64,000 bases of DNA from Pseudolabrys taiwanensis (GTDB lineage: Bacteria; Pseudomonadota; Alphaproteobacteria; Rhizobiales; Xanthobacteraceae), in contig NZ_CP031417.1 in assembly GCF_003367395.1 (NCBI RefSeq), positions 3,596,001 to 3,660,000 of the forward strand. The letters run 5' to 3'. Position numbers and translations under genes: made by a program. Positions 3,070 to 62,069 of this stretch are shown here, piece by piece; the first letter of the stretch is position 1, and every line of letters starts with the position of its first letter. The notes beneath the pieces were generated by a model. It saw nothing but the letters and a program-made list of their open reading frames with translations, had not been told where the DNA came from and did not search any database.

Positions 3070-3219
3070 AATCGCTTCCTAACTCCATCGCTATTACGCC
3101 GTCCTGAGGCGAAAACGAGCGAACTCGCACGCTTCTCGGTCGCGGCCCCGTATTTACGGCCCGGCCCGGACAGGGTCAAATGCACCTCCTTTTAATTGGG
3201 GCTCCGACAATCGCCTGCC

Positions 3220-3672
3220 ATGCTTACCGCGCAACCCATCTTCACGATCCGCTGCGAACTCGAAGGCATCATGAGCCTCGGCCAAACGCCATTGGGCGAG
3301 CGCCGCATCATCAATATTCTCGGCGGGCCGGTGACCGGACCTAAACTCAACGGCCGGGTGCTGCCCGGCGGCGCCGATTGGCAAATCATCCGTGCCGACG
3401 GCGCTGCCGACATCCAGGCGCGCTACACCATCGAGACAGATGCCGGCGCGCGCATTCTCGTTTCGAGCGAGGGCCTGCGTCACGGCCCACCGGAAGTCAT
3501 GGCCCGGCTCGCGCGCGGCGAGAATGTCGACCCGACGCTGTACTATTTCCGCACCGTCATGCGCTTCGAAACCGCCGAACCGGCGGTCGACTGGATGAAT
3601 CGCATCCTGGCCATCGCCCACGGGCAGCGCGAGGCGCGTGCGGTCAAACTCGACGTCTACGAAGTCCTGTAA
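3220..3672 (+). CDS. DUF3237-family protein
   Basis: 150 residues from the ATG at 3220; a TTG eight codons upstream is less likely. The opening (MLTAQPIFTIRCELEGIMSL), the NILGGPVTGPKLNGRVLPGG block and the C-terminal half with YYFRTVMRFETAEPAVDWMN fit the DUF3237 beta-barrel family, which often accompanies aromatic and CoA-thioester catabolic genes in rhizobia. No enzymatic function is established for most members. It is transcribed divergently from pcaF across a 150-base gap and stands just before the regulatory dyads and the solute-binding protein gene. Confidence 0.75.
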   Translation: MLTAQPIFTIRCELEGIMSLGQTPLGERRIINILGGPVTGPKLNGRVLPGGADWQIIRADGAADIQARYTIETDAGARILVSSEGLRHGPPEVMARLARGENVDPTLYYFRTVMRFETAEPAVDWMNRILAIAHGQREARAVKLDVYEVL

Positions 3673-54135: not shown

Positions 54136-54212
54136 GCGCCCGTAGCTCAGCTGGATAGAGCGTTGCCCTCCGAAGGCAAAGGTCGGACGTTCGAATCGTC
54201 TCGGGCGCGCCA
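54136..54212 (+). tRNA. tRNA-Arg(CCG)
   Basis: Complete cloverleaf: acceptor GCGCCCG/CGGGCGC, D-arm GCTC...GAGC with AGCTGGATA loop, anticodon stem TTGCC/GGCAA with loop CTCCGAA (anticodon CCG, reads CGG), 5-nt variable loop, T-arm with TTCGAAT loop, discriminator G and encoded CCA. Confidence 0.97.
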
Positions 54213-54581: not shown

Positions 54582-54815
54582 ATGGCAGATGATGACCAAA
54601 AACTCCAAATGGAGTTGGTCAAGCAGATCGGCGAGAGGATGAGTATTCTCGCCAGGATGCAAGCCGACTTCATGAAGCAACTGGCGGAGAGGCAAAGCCT
54701 CATGGGCAGGATGTTTGCCGAAGCGTCCAGTCAATTCAAACGCGGAACCGAGCTTACTGAAAGGATGGCCGCCAGGTTAGCGGCCAGGATGGAACGCAAG
54801 CTCGGCAAAGCGTAA
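54582..54815 (+). CDS. Small helical hypothetical protein, 77 residues
   Basis: ATG preceded by ATAAGGAGTGGCAG, a good ribosome-binding site. The sequence is strongly amphipathic and Met/Arg-rich with heptad-like spacing (ERMSILARMQADFMKQLAER, then ERMAARLAARMERKLGKA), so a coiled coil is likely; no signal peptide or cysteine. No family recognised. The hairpin array starts right at its stop codon, so the array could be its 3' untranslated region. Confidence 0.55.
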   Translation: MADDDQKLQMELVKQIGERMSILARMQADFMKQLAERQSLMGRMFAEASSQFKRGTELTERMAARLAARMERKLGKA

Positions 54816-55080
54816 GCCGTCACTGCCTTTGTCCCAGCCGAAGGTGGTAGCGCGAGATATGATGGCGTTCTGTGTCTCTCGACGTCCCAGCCAGCGAGAG
54901 CCGCAAGCCATCGTCACGGAACAGGCCTCGCCGTTCCCAGCACGACGAAGCTGAGAGTCCGCTCCCAATCAGTCGTCCGTCCCAGCCGGACGACGCAGCA
55001 TTCCGCCTCACTGTCCCAGCAACGCGGGACGGGGTGCTCGGAACGAATGCGCTCCCGGTTCCCAGCACCGGGAACGACGC
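54815..55080. repeat. Array of six hairpins with constant loop TCCCAGC and variable stems
   Basis: The heptamer TCCCAGC occurs at 54832, 54885, 54935, 54980, 55014 and 55060 (spacing 53, 50, 45, 34, 46). In five cases it is the apical loop between complementary but unrelated arms: CCTTTG/CGAAGG (extends to about 14 pairs); CTCTCG/CGAGAG with an internal mismatch; GCCTCGCCGT/ACGACGAAGC (8 of 10); GTCGTCCG/CGGACGAC (8 of 8); CTCCCGGT/ACCGGGAA (7 plus). The copy at 55014 folds differently (GTCCC/GGGAC). Loop conserved with stems covarying is the mark of a structured RNA, not of REP elements, whose stems are conserved. Either strand could be transcribed. Confidence 0.75.
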
Positions 55081-55160
55081 AATTGGAATGGCAGGCTCCC
55101 GTCGTCCGGCCGGCGTTCGTGCAATAGGCCGAGGGGATGGGACATCGCCTGCATGAGTAT

Positions 55161-55439
55161 GCGCCCGTAGCTCAAGGGTAGAGAAGGTGGCCCGCGGTGA
55201 CGACCACGGCTCGAGATCTTTGCAGGTCGCGGACAAATTCGTCCGACACGTCAACCGGCTCGCTGGGAGCAGGCTCGTGGTCGGCAGGCAGCCTTTCGAC
55301 AACCGAAACTCAGCGCACGGTGCACCGGAGCCGGTTTTCGCGAAAGGTTCGAGCAAAGGGGTCGGCACCCGACGTCAACTTCCAGAGCAACGGCCTCCTA
55401 AGCCGTGGGTTGCGGGTTCGAGTCCCGTCGGGCGTACCA
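55161..55439 (+). tRNA. tRNA-Arg(CCU) split in the D-arm by a 204-nt insertion
   Basis: The 5' part (55161-55183) gives acceptor GCGCCCG, TA, and GCTCAAGGGTAGAG. The 3' part (55388-55439) gives anticodon stem ACGGC/GCCGT with loop CTCCTAA (anticodon CCU), variable loop GGGTT, T-arm GCGGG/CCCGT with TTCGAGT, acceptor CGGGCGT, A73 and encoded CCA. Joining them restores a full D-arm and a paired acceptor (only G1-U72 is a wobble). AGAG occurs at both junctions, so the exact break is ambiguous. The alternative, a contiguous tRNA from 55365, needs an A-C acceptor mismatch, a broken D-stem and loss of the D-loop GG. Function after splicing is unproven; it may be a pseudogene. Confidence 0.65.
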
Positions 55440-55524: not shown

Positions 55525-55680
55525 ATGTCTGAAACAAAGACCGAAGTGAAGACCTCGGAATGCACTGAGAACAGCACCCCGGCCTACGAAAAGCCGGAAG
55601 TGAAGACGCTGAGCCAACGCGACATCGTGCAAGCCGTGAACAAAGGCTCGAAGTTCCCGGCACGCGGCTTCGCGGGATAA
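55525..55680 (+). CDS. Candidate RiPP precursor peptide, 51 residues
   Basis: ATG at 55525 with AACGAGGGA upstream. The N-terminal part is acidic and Thr/Glu-rich (MSETKTEVKTSECTENSTPA). The middle segment YEKPEVKTLSQRDIVQ recalls the YxxPxL leader motif that binds PqqD-like RRE proteins in lasso-peptide and related systems. The C-terminal AVNKGSKFPARGFAG would be the core. The only cysteine is in the leader, so thioether chemistry on the core is unlikely; Lys, Phe and Arg side chains are the obvious radical-SAM targets. It is the first gene of the cassette and is followed by a hairpin and then pqqD. Confidence 0.75.
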   Translation: MSETKTEVKTSECTENSTPAYEKPEVKTLSQRDIVQAVNKGSKFPARGFAG

Positions 55681-55693
55681 GCCACTCTTCGTG

Positions 55694-55736
55694 CGGCCAG
55701 GCCTGCTCGTGCCTCGTCACCGGACGGGCCTGGCCG
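55694..55736 (+). promoter_or_regulatory. Strong hairpin between the precursor and the modifying enzymes
   Basis: Perfect 10-bp inverted repeat CGGCCAGGCC (55694-55703) and GGCCTGGCCG (55727-55736), 14 bases after the peptide stop, without a U-run. In RiPP operons such hairpins usually protect or attenuate the transcript so that the precursor is made in excess over the enzymes. Confidence 0.7.
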
Positions 55737-55791
55737 ATTAAGGTTCGTGTTGCGTCAGCGGCTTCTCGACAGCCGCCACGGAGCGTATCCC

Positions 55792-56091
55792 ATGTTGGCA
55801 CCCGCAGAGATGTCGGCGGACGCATGTCCGCAGCGGTCCGAGCATGTGCAGGCCCGCAAGGTCGGACGCGACACGCTCGTCGTCCACCTCCTCTTGAAGC
55901 AATATCACGTCCTCAATCACATCGCCGGCCGCATCTGGGACTTGGCGGACGGGACGCACTCCGGCGACGACATCGCCGCCACCATCGCCGCGGAGTTCAA
56001 CGCCGATCGCGGCGCCGTCGGCGACGACGTCGCGAACACGCTCCAGCTCTTGACCGATCTGCGCCTGATCGAACTCAAGGTCGCGCCGTGA
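55792..56091 (+). CDS. PqqD-family RiPP recognition element (RRE) protein
   Basis: 99 residues from the ATG at 55792, preceded by CGGAG; a GTG at 55747 would add 15 residues. The PqqD winged-helix fold is evident: ARKVGRDTLVVHLLLKQYHV (strands), LNHIAGRIWDLADGTHSGDD (recognition helix region) and TLQLLTDLRLIELK. Such proteins bind the leader peptide and deliver it to a radical SAM enzyme. Its TGA overlaps the GTG of the next gene. Confidence 0.85.
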   Translation: MLAPAEMSADACPQRSEHVQARKVGRDTLVVHLLLKQYHVLNHIAGRIWDLADGTHSGDDIAATIAAEFNADRGAVGDDVANTLQLLTDLRLIELKVAP

Positions 56092-57446
56092 GCGATCGCC
56101 GCTATTCCGCGGTACCGCTTGGTTGGGTCCAGCATGCCGACCGCTCGCTGGCCATCAGCCGCGTGCAATCGCGCTGGGCCGCTCTCAACGAAACGGCCGC
56201 CAGCCTGCTGCGCGCCTGCGAGAGCGACGGCGGTCGCACGCTCGCCGATCTGCACGCCGGCTTTCAGGCGCGTTTCGGTACGGTCGAGCCGTCCGAACTC
56301 GCCGGCTGGCTGGACAGTCTCGCGCAAGCCGGCCTGCTGACCGGCGACACCGCGCGCGCCCAACCTCGGCCGCGCGCCGACTATCGCGTCGAGCACGTCT
56401 ATATCGAGCTGCTCGCGCGCTGCAATTTGCGCTGCGTGCACTGCTTCATGGGCGGCGCGCCGGAACGGGAAGAAGAACTGACGCCGGCGCAGGTCTTCAC
56501 CCTGCTCGACGACTTCGCCGCGCATGGCGGGCAATACGTGACGTTGTCCGGCGGCGAGCCGATCCTCTACCGCGACTTCCCCGCCATCGCCCGGCACGTC
56601 GCCGAGCTCGGCCTCTATGGCACCGTGATCAGCAACGGCATCTCGTTGCGCCAGGAACAATTGCAGCTGTTGGACCGCCTCGGCTTCAACGTCGCGATCA
56701 GCGTCGACGGCATCACGCCGGAGGTGAACAAAGCGATCCGCGGCCGCAGCCCCGCCAAGGCCATCGACGCGATCGACCGCACGTTACGGCTCGTCGGCCC
56801 CGACCGCTTCATCCTGTCGTTCACACCGGTGAAGGCGAACATCGGCGAACTTCCGAAGCTGTTCGACTTCATCGAGCAGCGCGGCATCCGCCGGCTGAAC
56901 CTGTCGCTGTACGAAGCGGTCGGTCGCGCCGTCGACTATACGGACATGCTGACGATGGACGCGGCGGACCGGCTGCGGTTGATCCGCACCGTCTACGAGA
57001 AGGCGATCGATTGGATCGGCAAGGTCGAAATCGACTTCAACGACACGCGCAACATCCTCAGTCAATTCACCGAAAGCCGCGCCTCCAGCGAATTGCATCC
57101 GCTGTGGCGCGGCGTGCGCGTGACCTCCAGCGGCGAGGTGTTTCCGAGCTCGTTCGGCGCGGTCGAGCGTTTCCGGCTCGGCAACATCCGGGACACCGCG
57201 TTTGGCGCCCTGCTCGACTCCGAGGTGTTGAGCACGCTCTATAACGATCTGCTCGATCGCGACGCCAAGACGCCGAAATGCCGCGACTGCGTCTGGCGGC
57301 AAATCTGTCGCGGCGGCAGCGTCGCCTCGGCCTTCTGCGCCAATGGCGAGATCCACTCGCCCGACGCTTATTGCGACGCCTATCTCGCGGTGTTCCCGCA
57401 GGTCGCGGTAACGCTTGCCGAACTCGCGCCGACGGGGCCGTCATGA
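56088..57446 (+). CDS. Radical SAM/SPASM peptide-modifying enzyme
   Basis: 452 residues from a GTG at 56088 that overlaps the pqqD stop; a longer open frame exists but starts inside pqqD. The N-terminus (about 1-95) looks like a second RRE/PqqD-like wing (AALNETAASLLRACESDGGR; LDSLAQAGLLTGD). The radical SAM domain has the cluster motif ARCNLRCVHCFMGG (CxxxCxxC, about residue 112), YVTLSGGEPILYRDFP and NVAISVDGI. The C-terminal SPASM cysteines are in KCRDCVWRQICRGG and the following SAFC...YC, for auxiliary clusters. Expected to install a radical-based crosslink or epimerisation in the peptide. Confidence 0.9.
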   Translation: MSDRRYSAVPLGWVQHADRSLAISRVQSRWAALNETAASLLRACESDGGRTLADLHAGFQARFGTVEPSELAGWLDSLAQAGLLTGDTARAQPRPRADYRVEHVYIELLARCNLRCVHCFMGGAPEREEELTPAQVFTLLDDFAAHGGQYVTLSGGEPILYRDFPAIARHVAELGLYGTVISNGISLRQEQLQLLDRLGFNVAISVDGITPEVNKAIRGRSPAKAIDAIDRTLRLVGPDRFILSFTPVKANIGELPKLFDFIEQRGIRRLNLSLYEAVGRAVDYTDMLTMDAADRLRLIRTVYEKAIDWIGKVEIDFNDTRNILSQFTESRASSELHPLWRGVRVTSSGEVFPSSFGAVERFRLGNIRDTAFGALLDSEVLSTLYNDLLDRDAKTPKCRDCVWRQICRGGSVASAFCANGEIHSPDAYCDAYLAVFPQVAVTLAELAPTGPS

Positions 57447-58456
57447 AGGCCGCATTCGCGCTGCCCTCGGACCTGGAAAGCGGCGCGGATATCGTCGGCC
57501 GCCTGCCGAGCCATTTCGCGCTCGACTTCTGTGGCGCGCCGGTTGACATCGCCTCGACCTCCGACCGCGCCATCGCCACGCTGCGCCGGGTCTATCGGCA
57601 CTTCCTCGACACGACGCACGAGGCCGCCGGCGGGAGCGAGCGCGACACATTGCTCCTCATCGAGGAAGGCACGGCGGAGGCCACGACGCTCGCCGCGGCG
57701 CTCGGCCGCGATGCGAAGGATTTCGACGGCCATATTCTGATCGCCAGTTGGCTTGGACAGGGCCTGCGCATCGCGAACCATGCTTTGCTGCACTATTACG
57801 CGTCCAAACTTCTACGGCTGCGCATCGTCGAACGCTGGCATCCCGAGGTCGTCACGCTGCATGCGGCTTCGCTGAGCGCGCCGTGGGGCGGCGGCCTGTT
57901 GCTGCTCGGCGAGGCGGCCGCCGGCAAGACGACGTTGACGCTGCGCTTGATCGACGATGGCTTCCGTTACTGCGCGGACGACACGACCTGCATCCGCCGC
58001 CGCGACCTCGCCTGCCTGCCCTTCCCGATGGCCTTCATCGTACGCGGCGACCTGACGACCGGCCTGCCGGGGCCGTCCGCGCTGCGCGGGCGCGCGCCCG
58101 ATCTGTCGCTGCTCGACGAGCCGCGCTGGCTGATGGAGCGTTGGGACGCGGTCGGCATGCCGTTCCAGCCGACGACGCTCTATTTCGTCGCCCGCGATCC
58201 GGCCCGCGCAGCCGGCGACATCCGCCCGATGCCGCAGGCCGACGCCGCGCTCGCGCTGCTGCGCAATCTGATGATGCCCCTCGGCGCGGATGCCGACGCC
58301 TTCACCATCGATCCTCTGAACTTCGACACGTGCTGCCGCCTGGCGGAAGCGTGCCGATGCCTCGCGGTCAACACCGTCGACCTCGACCGCGCCCATGACG
58401 TCATCGTCGCCGATTATCACAACAACGCCCGACCGCTAACGCAGGTGGCCTCATGA
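57443..58456 (+). CDS. HPr-kinase-related ATPase/kinase of the RiPP cassette
   Basis: 337 residues; ATG overlaps the preceding stop (ATGA). The C-terminal half is HPrK-like: LLLLGEAAAGKTTLTLRLID (P-loop, about residue 155) and DDGFRYCADDTTCIRR, which keeps the paired acidic residues of the HPr kinase active site. The N-terminal 140 residues do not resemble the HPrK sensor domain. HPrK-related proteins occur with PqqD proteins in several peptide clusters, and in paeninodin-type lasso pathways a relative phosphorylates the peptide. Here it could phosphorylate the peptide or regulate the pathway. No PTS genes are nearby. Confidence 0.8.
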   Translation: MKAAFALPSDLESGADIVGRLPSHFALDFCGAPVDIASTSDRAIATLRRVYRHFLDTTHEAAGGSERDTLLLIEEGTAEATTLAAALGRDAKDFDGHILIASWLGQGLRIANHALLHYYASKLLRLRIVERWHPEVVTLHAASLSAPWGGGLLLLGEAAAGKTTLTLRLIDDGFRYCADDTTCIRRRDLACLPFPMAFIVRGDLTTGLPGPSALRGRAPDLSLLDEPRWLMERWDAVGMPFQPTTLYFVARDPARAAGDIRPMPQADAALALLRNLMMPLGADADAFTIDPLNFDTCCRLAEACRCLAVNTVDLDRAHDVIVADYHNNARPLTQVAS

Positions 58457-59853
58457 GCGACATCACGCTCGTCAACACGGTGTTCCCGAGCGACGTCAAG
58501 GTGCCGCCGCAGGGCATCCTGTATCTCACCGCGGCGATCGAGGACGCCGGTTTCGCGGTCGACATCCGCGACTATCAACTCTGCGGCTATGACGACCCGT
58601 GGGAGCCCGCGGCGCTGGCGCGTTTCGTCGAGCGCAGCGCGCCGATCATCGGATTCAGTTGCATGAGCTATGCGCTGCCGCTGGTGATCTCAGCCGCGCG
58701 CCTGATCAAGCGCCGCCATCCGGAGAAGACGATCGTGCTCGGCGGCATCGGCCCTTCCGGCGCGGGCGGTGCGCTGCTCGAATTCTGTCCGGAGATCGAC
58801 GTGATCGTCGACGGCGAGGGCGAACGGACCATCGTCGATCTCATCCGCTGCCTCCAGACCAACGGCAACCTGCGCTCGGTGGCCGGCATCGTCTGCCGCG
58901 ATGGCAGCAGGGCCGTCGCCACCGCCGCGCGACCACGCATCGGGTCGATGACCGAGCTCAAGGCGCCGGCCTATCATCGCGTCGACCTGTCGAATTATCG
59001 CCTGGTGGACAGCCAGTTCGGGCGCGGCTGCCCCTTCAAATGCAGCTTCTGCGACATCGCGCCGTATTGGGGCCGGCTCAATACGCATCGGCCGATCGAA
59101 CACTATGTCGACGAGCTCGAGCAACTGGTGCGCCGCCATGGCGCGCACGACGTCTTCATCGTCGACGACACTTTCGTGCTGTCGCGCAAATCGATCGTCC
59201 GTTTCTGCGACGAGATCATCAGCCGCGACCTTCGCTTCGAATGGGGGTGCTACGCCCGCGTCGACCTGATGGACGAGGAACTGATGGCCCGGATGGCGGC
59301 CGCCGGATGCCGAAAGGTGTTCTACGGCGTCGAATCCGGCTCGGACCAGGTGCTCGGCGACATCGTCAAGGAAACCGACGTCGACACCATCACCGATATG
59401 GTCGCGTGCTCCCTGCGCCATTTCCCGTTCATCACCGCGTCGTTCGTCTGGGGCTTCCCCACCGAGTCGATGGACGATCTGCAACAGACAGTTTCACTGT
59501 TGCTCTATCTGACGTCGGTCGGCGCTTCGCCGCAATTGAACCTGGTGCTTCCATACTCGTACTCGACGCTCTACCGGCAGCACCGCGATCAAATCTACTT
59601 CGACCCGCGTTATTCGTCACAGCTTCAGTTCTACGAAGGCAAGGACAAAGCCTGGCTGCATGAGATGATCGCAAGCCGGCCGGACCTGTTCTCCGCCTTC
59701 TATTTGCTGCCGACGCCGGACTTCGCCGAGAAATGGGCCTATCTCGAACAGATCGGCCTATCGCCGCACGAACTGCAACGCGCCTACGACCACCCGGTGT
59801 TGCCGCCGCGGAGCAGCGCGCCGGCACCCCTGGCGGCAAACTTCGCGACATGA
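58453..59853 (+). CDS. B12-binding-type radical SAM enzyme
   Basis: 466 residues; ATG overlaps the upstream stop by four bases. N-terminal Rossmann domain of the cobalamin-binding type (PPQGILYLTAAIEDAGFAVD; GFSCMSYALPLVISAARLIK; EIDVIVDGEGERTIVDLI). The radical SAM domain has SQFGRGCPFKCSFCDIAPYW (CxxxCxxC, about residue 193-200) and KVFYGVESGSDQVLGDIVKE. The canonical DxHxxG lower ligand is not seen, as in many base-off family members. Such enzymes methylate unactivated carbons or form rings. It probably performs a second tailoring step on the peptide. Confidence 0.87.
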   Translation: MSDITLVNTVFPSDVKVPPQGILYLTAAIEDAGFAVDIRDYQLCGYDDPWEPAALARFVERSAPIIGFSCMSYALPLVISAARLIKRRHPEKTIVLGGIGPSGAGGALLEFCPEIDVIVDGEGERTIVDLIRCLQTNGNLRSVAGIVCRDGSRAVATAARPRIGSMTELKAPAYHRVDLSNYRLVDSQFGRGCPFKCSFCDIAPYWGRLNTHRPIEHYVDELEQLVRRHGAHDVFIVDDTFVLSRKSIVRFCDEIISRDLRFEWGCYARVDLMDEELMARMAAAGCRKVFYGVESGSDQVLGDIVKETDVDTITDMVACSLRHFPFITASFVWGFPTESMDDLQQTVSLLLYLTSVGASPQLNLVLPYSYSTLYRQHRDQIYFDPRYSSQLQFYEGKDKAWLHEMIASRPDLFSAFYLLPTPDFAEKWAYLEQIGLSPHELQRAYDHPVLPPRSSAPAPLAANFAT

Positions 59854-62069
59854 GTGGACCCGACGCACGCGCGGCGGCGGCGACCGCCAGCTACGACGCG
59901 GCGGCGGTGGAAGCGAAATGGCAGGCGCGCTGGGCGGACGCCGGATGCTTCAAGGCAACGGCGGACGAGCGGCAACGCAAGTTCTTCAACTTCGACGGCG
60001 GGCCCTTTCCGAACGGTGCCCTGCATATGGGCCACGTGCGCACCTTTACCCTGGGCGACGTGATGGCCCGCTATCGCCGCATGTGCGGCGATGCCGTCCT
60101 TTACTGCTTCGAGTTCGATGCCTTCGGTCTGCCGAACGAACTTGCCGCCAACGCACTCGGCATCGCGCCCGAAGAACTCACGCGCCGCAATATCGCGCAG
60201 ATGACCCGGCAGATGATCCGGCTGGGTCTCAGCTACGACTGGGATCACGTCGTCACGACATGCGACCCGGCCTACTACCGTTGGACCCAATGGCTGTTCC
60301 TGAAGCTGCGCGAGCGCGGACTCGTTTATCGCATGCCGGCCGAACTCAACTGGTGTCCGAGTTGCCACACCACGCTCGCCCACATGCAGGTCGATGACGG
60401 CTGCTGCTGGCGCTGCGACACGCCGGTGGAATCGCGCAAGTTGACGCAATGGTTCGTGGCGCTCGGCCGATATTCGGCGATCCTGTCCGACAGCCTCGAA
60501 CGCATGGAGGGATTCAGCCCGCGCGTGCGCAACGTGTTGCAAGGCTTCATCGGCAAGACCCCCGGCCTGGAATTCGACTTTGTCATTCGGGGCCACCCGG
60601 AGGTGACGCTGACGGCCTTCGCGCGCGCGGAATACGTGGACGCCGTCCCGTCTTATCTCGCCGTCGCCCCGGGCCATCCCGCGCTTGCAGACCTGCTTAC
60701 GCGCACGCAGGCCGATGCCTTGCGCCCGATGAACCAGCGGCGCCGGGCGCAGGCCGCCGCGCAACCGCCGCTCGATGGTTTCGATACCGGACTTGAAGCG
60801 GTCGAGGCTCACACCGGGGTGCGATTGCCCGTGTTCGTGGCGCGTCATGTGGACCCAGCGTTCGCCACCGGAGTCGAGATCGGATATCCGGCCGCGGACC
60901 CGCGCGCGCGGCAATTCGCCGAACGCCATAAGATCGCGTGCGCGCCGCCCAATGCCGGATCCCCGCTCAAGGGCCGGCCGGCGACACATTATCGTGTGCG
61001 CGATTGGCTGGTGTCACGCCAGCGTGCCTGGGGCACACCTATTCCCATCGTCCATTGCGAAGCGTGTGGCGAGGTGCCGGTGCCAGAGCAAGCCCTCCCC
61101 GTTCGCGTGCCGATCCTGACGCCAAACCTGCCGCCGGGTGGTCTCGCCGCGGTGCCTGGCTTTGCCGCCGCGCAATGTCCATGCTGCGGCAAGCCGGCGC
61201 GCCGCGAAACCGATACACTCGACTGCTATTTCGACGTTGTCTGGTGCTTCTTGGCCTGCGCCAACGGCCTGAAGCCGGACTTCAAATTCCAGGCCTCCGA
61301 CTTCGCGGATTGGACTCCGGTGGACTGGTTCCACAACGGGCTCGATTCATTGTTCTACATGCACCTCTACCGATTCCTCGGGCAGGTCTTGCATGAGATG
61401 GCGGTCCTGCCCGAGCCAGAGCCGATCCGTTGCTATATCGGCCATGATGCCGTGCTCCTCGACGGCCGCAAGATGAGCAAGCACCACGGCAACGTCGTTT
61501 CGCCGGATGCGGTCATCGAAAAAGAAGGCGCGGATGTGCTGCGCGTTCACGTTCTGTGGTCCGCCAATCCATTGAAGAGCGTTGAATGGTCGCAGGCGGG
61601 ACTGCAACGCGCCAAGCGCCTGCTCCTCGACGTCTGGAAGCTCGTCACGAGGCACGCGCTTGAAGTGCGGACGACGGCGGACGCTCCGCCGATGGACGCC
61701 AGCGCACAGCCATCACCGCTCGATAAGGCCGCAGCCCGCGCCGCACGCCGCGTCACCGAATTCCTGGAACGCTATCAGTACGCCGGCTGCCTCCAGGAAA
61801 TTCAGACCTTGATCGTCCGCCTGGAAGCCGAGGCCGAGCGCTTGTCGAATCGACCGTCAGCCCCACGCGATTCATTCGCCAACGGCATTCGTTGCCTCGT
61901 CACCATGCTTGCCCCGTTCGCGCCCCATATGGCGGAAGAGCTCTGGGAAGAAATCGGCGGCAAAGACCTGGTCGCACGTGCGCCGTGGCCGATCCTCGCG
62001 ACGGATGCGCCACACGCAGCCATGCCGAAGAACCCTGCACGCGGGCAAAGAGAGGCCGCTGCACCGTGA
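59850..62069 (+). CDS. Leucyl-tRNA synthetase paralogue lacking the C-terminal tRNA-binding domain
   Basis: 739 residues from the ATG overlapping the B12-rSAM stop; LeuRS usually has 820-870. Present: HIGH-type HMGH (59-62), FDAFGLPNELAANALGI, zinc-type NWCPSC...CCWRCDTPV, VSRQRAWGTPIPIVHCEACG and KMSKH (541-545). Changed: the editing signature TTRPDT is replaced by FARAEY, and GTGAVMAVPxHDxRD reads FATGVEIGYPAADPRARQF. The leucine-pocket histidines of GGIEHAxLH are replaced in NGLDSLFYMH. The last 60 or so residues (VNGKVR domain) are missing; the protein ends soon after the anticodon-domain helix FAPHMAEELWEEI. It is thus not the housekeeping enzyme. It may make an aminoacyl-adenylate for peptide modification, or be a resistance copy. 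Confidence 0.85.
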   Translation: MSGPDARAAAATASYDAAAVEAKWQARWADAGCFKATADERQRKFFNFDGGPFPNGALHMGHVRTFTLGDVMARYRRMCGDAVLYCFEFDAFGLPNELAANALGIAPEELTRRNIAQMTRQMIRLGLSYDWDHVVTTCDPAYYRWTQWLFLKLRERGLVYRMPAELNWCPSCHTTLAHMQVDDGCCWRCDTPVESRKLTQWFVALGRYSAILSDSLERMEGFSPRVRNVLQGFIGKTPGLEFDFVIRGHPEVTLTAFARAEYVDAVPSYLAVAPGHPALADLLTRTQADALRPMNQRRRAQAAAQPPLDGFDTGLEAVEAHTGVRLPVFVARHVDPAFATGVEIGYPAADPRARQFAERHKIACAPPNAGSPLKGRPATHYRVRDWLVSRQRAWGTPIPIVHCEACGEVPVPEQALPVRVPILTPNLPPGGLAAVPGFAAAQCPCCGKPARRETDTLDCYFDVVWCFLACANGLKPDFKFQASDFADWTPVDWFHNGLDSLFYMHLYRFLGQVLHEMAVLPEPEPIRCYIGHDAVLLDGRKMSKHHGNVVSPDAVIEKEGADVLRVHVLWSANPLKSVEWSQAGLQRAKRLLLDVWKLVTRHALEVRTTADAPPMDASAQPSPLDKAAARAARRVTEFLERYQYAGCLQEIQTLIVRLEAEAERLSNRPSAPRDSFANGIRCLVTMLAPFAPHMAEELWEEIGGKDLVARAPWPILATDAPHAAMPKNPARGQREAAAP

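Follow-up and report, generated by a model that had tools for sequence, protein, structure and literature searches.

A six-gene cassette with a split tRNA gene

We analysed a stretch of 64,000 nucleotides from Pseudolabrys taiwanensis (contig NZ_CP031417.1, positions 3,596,001 to 3,660,000; hereafter the window, whose own numbering is used for coordinates) that carries six consecutive genes, encoding a precursor-like peptide, a PqqD-like protein, a SPASM-type radical S-adenosylmethionine (SAM) enzyme, a kinase resembling HPr kinase (HPrK), a B12-binding radical SAM enzyme and a paralogue of leucyl-tRNA synthetase (LeuRS). An initial annotation, made from the sequence, had read these genes as a pathway for a ribosomally synthesized and post-translationally modified peptide (RiPP). 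Comparison of the flanks with those of two relatives shows that the conserved unit begins near 54.58 kb, not at 55.525 kb, and thus also contains a split tRNA gene, a stretch of repeats and a small open reading frame (ORF) rich in AGG codons. The features are as follows:

54582-54815, + strand: AGG-rich small helical ORF of 77 amino acids, putative target message (7 AGG among 9 arginine codons)
54816-55160, + strand: repeat stretch 3' of the AGG-rich ORF, with six TCCCAGC (repeat search, predicted hairpins)
55161-55180, + strand: split tRNA (anticodon CCU), 5' part (sequence reading; counterparts in both relatives)
55181-55384, + strand: tRNA insert of 204 nt, between tRNA positions 21 and 22 (numbering by eye)
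55385-55439, + strand: split tRNA, 3' part with CCA, anticodon CCT at 55397-55399 (Rfam tRNA, 35.7 bits)
55525-55680, + strand: precursor or carrier peptide ORF, 51 amino acids, C-terminal end kept in three genomes
55792-56091, + strand: PqqD-like peptide-binding protein (PF05402, 1.3e-11)
56088-57446, + strand: radical SAM/SPASM enzyme with a PqqD-like stretch at the N terminus (SPASM and PqqD matches just under cut-off)
57443-58456, + strand: HPrK-like P-loop kinase (under family cut-offs; Walker A and DD residues invariant in all three genomes)
58453-59853, + strand: B12-binding radical SAM enzyme (Radical_SAM and B12-binding family matches)
59850-62069, + strand: LeuRS paralogue of 739 amino acids (leucine pocket rebuilt, editing motif lost, C-terminal domain absent)

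The ORFs and the family scans agree with the six products that the initial annotation had named, and the four junctions among the five enzyme genes are indeed overlaps of 4 bases each. The SPASM enzyme matches Radical_SAM at 1.1e-23 and falls 0.2 bits short of the SPASM cut-off (21.3 against 21.5 bits), the HPrK-like protein scores 24.4 bits with Hpr_kinase_C (cut-off 33.3) and 28.2 bits with HprK-related kinase A (TIGR04352; below the cut-off of 200), and the LeuRS paralogue matches tRNA-synt_1 at 1.1e-50 and leuS_bact at 514.8 bits (cut-off 548.4). For the B12 protein the best NCBIfam match is ApyD (NF050148), an ApyD-type B12 radical SAM family whose cut-off of 750 bits lies far above the 194.3 bits obtained. 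Among the matches listed, i.e. the best 25 each for two of the six proteins, no cassette protein reaches an NCBIfam cut-off. Predicted structures were poor (pLDDT 45.7 for the HPrK-like protein and 59.0 for the LeuRS paralogue). PADLOC returned weak viperin-type matches for the SPASM protein and one weak match for the B12 protein, which we take as general radical SAM likeness. The promoter scan gave no site and the terminator scan two, both near the means of shuffled sequence, and on the + strand between 54200 and 55900 the scan found no terminator-like site.

All six genes recur, with their order kept, in Roseibium marinum (L022) and in a metagenome-assembled genome (MAG) of Rhodobacter (L023), and the full cassette, including the split tRNA and the AGG-rich ORF, is present in these two genomes and in the window. 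Identities to the window, for Roseibium and the MAG respectively, are 56 and 56% for the SPASM protein, 40 and 45% for the HPrK-like protein, 65 and 63% for the B12 protein and 56 and 53% for the LeuRS paralogue, so that the grouping goes beyond chance. The strict translational coupling that the initial annotation had claimed applies to the enzyme genes of the window; it does not extend to some junctions in the two relatives, which are short gaps, nor to the precursor, whose stop codon is separated from pqqD by 111 nt.

The small precursor-like ORF is conserved in both full relatives, as the initial annotation required, and a conserved precursor adjoining PqqD and SPASM radical SAM genes is the arrangement of a PqqD/SPASM RiPP locus. 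Its end, KGSKFPARGF[AS]G (KGSKFPARGFAG or KGSKFPARGFSG), is common to the three genomes (window codons 55642-55677); over the last 13 codons any two genomes share 8 codons exactly, with 3-4 synonymous and 1-2 non-synonymous differences among the rest. A DNA pattern for KGSKFPA, the start of this end, occurs once per genome in the three genomes, and a precursor-core pattern gave 12 matches in viral contigs, none of which continues as the core.

The tRNA, its codon, its repeats and its synthetase

In all three cassettes an extra tRNA gene with anticodon CCU lies upstream of the precursor, with its D-loop split by an insert of 204 nt in the window, 198 nt in Roseibium and 213 nt in the MAG. When the parts are joined without the insert, ARAGORN calls a 75-nt tRNA-Arg(CCU) in each of the three genomes. 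The tRNA parts are 89-92% identical between genomes, and the inserts 42-46%, which is no more than shuffled inserts give. Each genome also has at least one ordinary tRNA-Arg(CCU), so that a seemingly dedicated tRNA gene with a matching anticodon stands beside the ordinary ones in all three, as would befit an expansion of the genetic code. Against five ordinary tRNAs (ordinary CCU tRNAs and the tRNA-Arg(CCG) of the window) the cassette tRNAs show 68-74% similarity, and the ordinary CCU tRNAs of the different genomes show 74-82% among themselves; the cassette tRNAs are a lineage distinct from the tRNAs of their hosts. At position 20 they have C or U, not A, in all three cases; in PMC9976931, A20 is given as the main arginine determinant in E. 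coli tRNA, and A73 as crucial for leucine in the same organism. Predicted folds of the split tRNA have z of -0.44 in the window, -0.88 in the MAG and -2.82 in Roseibium. ARAGORN calls no transfer-messenger RNA (tmRNA) in the window or the two related loci, and this candidate was set aside. At E<=1 none of the three inserts matches an Rfam intron family (group I or II). Each insert has a palindrome, GGTGCACC (window 55319-55326) or GATGCATC (Roseibium), at insert position 139 in the window, 135 in Roseibium and 147 in the MAG, which could serve as an RNA dimerisation loop.

The codon that an anticodon CCU reads is AGG, and apart from the six genes the window flanks have just one gene in common with both relatives, the AGG-rich ORF of 75-77 amino acids upstream of the tRNA. 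Its counterparts lie at the same place (L022 core, 3211-3438; L023 core, 3348-3578), and with AGG masked the proteins are still 34-40% identical between genomes; at 1e-4 each matched the window copy, and the Roseibium-MAG pair was not among the matches. The window ORF has no Pfam family, the AGG-motif pattern was absent from viral contigs, and a search of 10 relatives (eight from the same genus), made without a positive control, found no copy of the ORF. AGG makes up 7 of 9 in-frame arginine codons in the window, 8 of 10 in Roseibium and 6 of 9 in the MAG, against 2.7% of 12247, 8.2% of 4223 and 5.5% of 4954 arginine codons in host genes of at least 200 amino acids (P of 3.6e-10, 7.9e-8 and 2.0e-6, respectively). 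These backgrounds come from samples of 479 kb of the genome of the window and 233 kb each of Roseibium and the MAG, which include the cassette genes and a few-kb overlap between stretches. The six cassette genes of the window hold 2 AGG among 175 arginine codons, and the highest AGG share among 287 sampled host genes is 0.23.

The AGG codons, which are spread over most of the ORF, do not align with CGN codons. Among 16 aligned pairs of arginines, 13 are AGG/AGG, three are CGN/CGN and none is mixed, and three alignment columns are AGG in all three genomes. The codon is kept in 13/13 AGG pairs versus 19/55 other identical residues (Fisher 1.1e-5; methionine and tryptophan omitted, pairs not independent). 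Because mixed AGG-CGN pairs are absent, AGG behaves as a separate letter, and it is used as such in the small ORF, in the manner of a codon in an expanded genetic code.

Between the ORF and the tRNA, TCCCAGC occurs in the window at 54832, 54885, 54935, 54980, 55014 and 55060; the MAG has four TCCCAGC inside a cluster of six TCCCAG, and Roseibium has three TCCCCAG. The copies at 54832, 54980 and 55060 form exact 7-nt hairpin loops in the predicted structure and one more lies in a larger loop, with less regular predicted hairpins in Roseibium and the MAG. Clusters of at least three repeats in 400 nt occur nowhere else in the 479 kb of the genome of the window or the 233-kb Roseibium sample, and once more in the 233 kb of the MAG (L144), over open frames that are not AGG-rich. 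The window insert contains the complement of the repeats, GCTGGGA, at 55262-55268. The best 7-mer complements in the inserts are GCTGGGA at position 82 (window), CTGGGGA at 78 (Roseibium) and CTGGGAA at 85 (MAG), equalled by 6, 54 and 39 of 500 shuffled inserts (combined p 0.005), and GCTGGG is the sole 6-mer at a similar place in all three inserts (6 of 500 shuffles have as many). Roseibium has one extra C in its repeats and one extra G in the insert partner; the complementarity, in other words, differs between genomes on both sides together.

The LeuRS paralogue is 36-37% identical, in three pieces, to the separate ordinary LeuRS of its host. Relative to canonical LeuRS, all three cassette copies have MFPYPS changed to GGPFPN, SSWY[YF] to V[VI]WCF, GWD[AS]FG[LM]PAE to EFDAFGLPNE and QYIGG[IV]EH to WFHNG[LI]DS; the TTRPDT editing motif is gone, HMGH and KMSK are kept, and the C-terminal domain is absent. 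The changed pocket positions are presumably M40, L41, Y499 and Y527 of E. coli LeuRS, which have been altered in laboratory LeuRS variants. In a tree the three cassette proteins are one branch (98/98), separate from the canonical and phage LeuRS included. A Rhodothermales LeuRS-like protein of 509 amino acids without an editing domain (L024, 3994-5523) joins this branch (100/100), with the grouping unsure because of its very long branch. Viral contigs (L089-L093) also carry LeuRS copies of 419-431 amino acids without an editing domain, accompanied in three of the five loci by 10-13 tRNA genes. The aligned viral copies (L090, L092) keep the canonical leucine pocket, from which it follows that loss of the editing domain by itself is compatible with tRNA charging.

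Dedicated recoding and its alternatives

The best reading of the cassette, to which we would give an even chance, is that a synthetase and its tRNA together recode AGG in a single protein. The presence of every part in three genomes, the behaviour of the codon, the separate tRNA lineage, the change of the pocket and the two-sided complementarity were observed here; charging, recoding, the nature of the amino acid, its synthesis on a carrier peptide, and tethering by the insert are proposed on the strength of these. The cassette would then be a self-contained translation side-channel, in which the CCU tRNA reads AGG in the small helical ORF and the LeuRS paralogue loads it with a residue different from arginine, most probably an unusual amino acid that the PqqD-like, SPASM, HPrK-like and B12 radical SAM proteins would produce on the carrier peptide. 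As substrate of the HPrK-like protein, the peptide, the amino acid and the charged tRNA are all conceivable. Through pairing of its D-loop insert with the repeats 3' of the ORF, the special tRNA would be drawn to one message, sparing the AGG codons in other genes. In this complete form, i.e. a further encoded amino acid built on a carrier peptide by radical SAM enzymes, charged by a LeuRS derivative and steered by the insert to the AGG codons of a single message only, the proposal is tentative, and we would rather expect it not to hold in full.

Several observations weigh against recoding. The cassette is known from only three genomes. Short noise ORFs can reach equal AGG shares: ranked by share among the 163 ORFs that have five or more AGG in the sample from the genome of the window, the small ORF comes third (sixth in the Roseibium sample, where a longer start was used, and first in the Rhodobacter sample). 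By itself, the bias towards AGG rather than AGA is weak (P of 0.05, 0.02 and 0.20), and the residues aligned with AGG elsewhere include lysine, and also glutamate, leucine, isoleucine and glycine; given the lysine, a basic residue at AGG is possible. The ordinary tRNA-Arg(CCU) of the hosts, with two copies in the host of the window, would compete at AGG, and the cassette tRNA retains the other arginine determinants C35, U36 and A73. By the Pfam scan the six genes include no further enzyme that uses aminoacyl-tRNA, no protease and no exporter. The 7-mer complement test is weak in two genomes (the 54 and 39 of 500 shuffles given above), the 6-mer test gives 29, 264 and 65 of 500 shuffles, and the motif in the window insert is predicted to be paired (0.16 unpaired, against 0.58 and 0.53 in the others).

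If AGG still meant arginine, the extra CCU tRNA would add decoding capacity and the LeuRS paralogue would work separately in the peptide pathway. The retained C35, U36 and A73, the lysine among the aligned residues and the ordinary CCU tRNA in all three hosts favour this, and yet all three tRNAs lack A20, the main arginine determinant, CGN codons are available for arginine and are used elsewhere in the same ORF, and no arginyl-tRNA synthetase is among the six genes; that AGA is nearly absent though also rare points the same way, weakly by itself. Altogether we hold this alternative to be unlikely. Somewhat more doubtful to us is a peptide route of another kind, resembling that of the pearlins, in which the carrier peptide receives an amino acid supplied by the LeuRS paralogue and the tRNA, and the small ORF encodes a chaperone or regulator. 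Peptide aminoacyl-tRNA ligases (PEARLs) are reported to attach amino acids from aminoacyl-tRNA to carrier peptides, and a LeuRS-like gene also occurs in a YcaO locus (L025); this route nevertheless leaves the AGG clustering and the CCU anticodon unexplained, the Pfam scan of the six cassette proteins gave no lantibiotic-dehydratase-like match, and both relatives share just one more gene with the window flanks, namely the small ORF. The AGG-rich ORF might also be a regulatory leader that senses charging of the cassette tRNA and switches the downstream genes by means of the hairpin array, in keeping with the succession of codon cluster, predicted hairpins and operon on one strand. Known leader peptides are shorter than 75-77 amino acids, and an ORF of this length that remains alike as a protein with AGG masked, that has AGG codons over most of its length and that is followed by no terminator-like site makes a leader improbable. 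A spare LeuRS that shields the producer from its own LeuRS-blocking product is hardly credible: resistant spare synthetases exist in other clusters, but here the leucine pocket residues are replaced, the editing motif and the C-terminal domain are lost, and the three paralogues branch apart from canonical and phage LeuRS (98/98). By sequence, the kept pocket and editing motif that self-resistance calls for are missing, and this candidate was rejected.

With regard to the insert alone, an intron of an undescribed kind, spliced to yield the tRNA, competes with a targeting domain. The joined parts make a 75-nt tRNA in all three genomes, insert length is similar, and bacterial tRNA introns exist, in the anticodon loop according to PMC5733544; on the other side stand the lack of Rfam intron families at E<=1 and the repeat complement at the same place in each insert. 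An intron is thus a fair-sized possibility, although not the side to which we incline, and both readings of the insert may hold. Overall, a dedicated recoding unit fits the facts better than a plain RiPP cluster. The RiPP route of the initial annotation stands as regards the conserved precursor and is otherwise incomplete: the split tRNA, the repeats and the AGG-rich ORF had gone unnoticed, and with them the LeuRS paralogue becomes a likely synthetase for a dedicated tRNA and not another RiPP step.

Known systems, occurrence and neighbouring loci

The pyrrolysine and selenocysteine systems comprise a dedicated tRNA, a dedicated synthetase or route of charging, biosynthesis genes for the amino acid and few target proteins, and in the case of selenocysteine also an RNA element in the message. 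To our knowledge these two are the sole natural additions to the genetic code, both at stop codons. Judged from its genes, the cassette would resemble them in each of the four respects, and differs in its sense codon AGG, its LeuRS-derived synthetase, its peptide-borne modification and its tRNA with a large insert. With the PEARL/pearlin route it has in common a carrier peptide and an aminoacyl-tRNA in one route; the cassette has its own tRNA, synthetase and AGG-rich ORF instead, and no PEARL-like match among its six proteins, to which this Pfam check applied (flanking ORFs were only compared between genomes). PqqD/SPASM RiPP loci likewise have a precursor, a PqqD-like protein and a SPASM radical SAM enzyme; what sets the cassette proteins apart is the distance from NCBIfam cut-offs noted above. 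In tmRNA, a large insert within a tRNA body acts on the translation of messages; the cassette tRNA differs in keeping its anticodon arm intact and in having the insert in the D-loop. Laboratory LeuRS pairs for unnatural amino acids also have changed pocket positions and disabled editing, whereas the cassette is natural and its synthetase adjoins a tRNA of non-leucine type.

The initial annotation knew of no described family that combines these enzymes, and a literature search, with subscription journals mostly outside its scope, likewise found no paper joining RiPPs with leucyl-tRNA synthetase and radical SAM enzymes, none joining a dedicated tRNA with a biosynthetic gene cluster and an aminoacyl-tRNA synthetase, and none joining HPr kinase with radical SAM enzymes and PqqD; titles and the starts of abstracts on split or D-loop-interrupted tRNAs gave no hint of such a system. 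If the recoding holds, a sense codon recoded in one gene, with its own amino-acid factory and a tRNA steered by base pairing, would be a new mode of extending proteins, and the cassette a ready-made orthogonal translation system. Even if AGG means arginine, a transferable cassette of split tRNA, altered synthetase and AGG-lettered ORF is without counterpart as far as those titles and abstract starts show.

The loci were obtained by searching genome contigs with pieces specific to the LeuRS paralogue, which gave 39 pattern stretches and four loci; more cassette members may exist, because the scan requires exact words of 8 residues. In L024 and L025 the LeuRS query alone found a relative, the other five genes being unmatched (over 15 kb in L024; L025 ends at the contig end), so that the expected company of the LeuRS paralogue with the other genes is borne out in the two closest loci (53-56% identity) and not in the two distant ones. 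The split-tRNA pattern, which is specific to the cassette tRNA sequence, occurs in 1/385 genomes of the class and the SPASM protein (at 1e-30) in 1/289, in both cases the window's own genome; the HPrK-like protein has matches in 10/100 genomes including that of the window, the other nine weak (<=27.7 bits). At 1e-90, with the centre genome counted, the B12 protein was found in 1/87 genomes of the Roseibium family, 1/295 of the Rhodobacter family, 2/397 of the order of the window and 1/398 of the phylum. The second match in the order (L042, 8660-10249; 37% identity) is without the other five cassette genes nearby and adjoins apparent YcaO and TfuA genes (named by eye). In viral contigs the SPASM protein has no relative and the B12 protein distant ones only (17 loci, <=28%). 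In plasmids the SPASM protein reaches at most 30.5% identity (best 15 of 318 records) and the B12 protein is again distant (<=32.2%, best 12 of 186 records); neither the HPrK-like protein nor the precursor was found there, and the 3' part of the tRNA occurs in 28 records, with 79-86% identity among the matches listed, in unrelated genera.

In a same-genus relative (G033) the distance from tRNA-Arg(CCG) to the response regulator is about 1.3 kb, versus about 8.1 kb in the window, and this shorter spacing suggests that the cassette arrived as one block between 54.2 and 62.3 kb. In two other same-genus relatives the regulator side matches, with no tRNA called in the compared stretch. From the comparison of flanks, antisense shadow ORFs of cassette genes were set aside, as were two ORFs in the Roseibium flanks with matches at 44.5 kb of the window. 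A tRNA-Arg(CCG) gene (54136-54212) precedes the window cassette and a tRNA-Met gene (L022, 10888-10964, - strand) directly follows the Roseibium cassette; both are possible integration sites.

Synthetase paralogues also occur in a second locus of RiPP type, namely L025 (2718-9223) of Bradyrhizobium sp. Leo170, which contains a YcaO gene (8e-68), a ThiF-like gene (under cut-off), a nitroreductase gene, a Cys-rich ORF that is a candidate precursor (by eye), a gene like that for cysteinyl-tRNA synthetase (CysRS) in two frames and, at the contig end, the start of the LeuRS-like gene.

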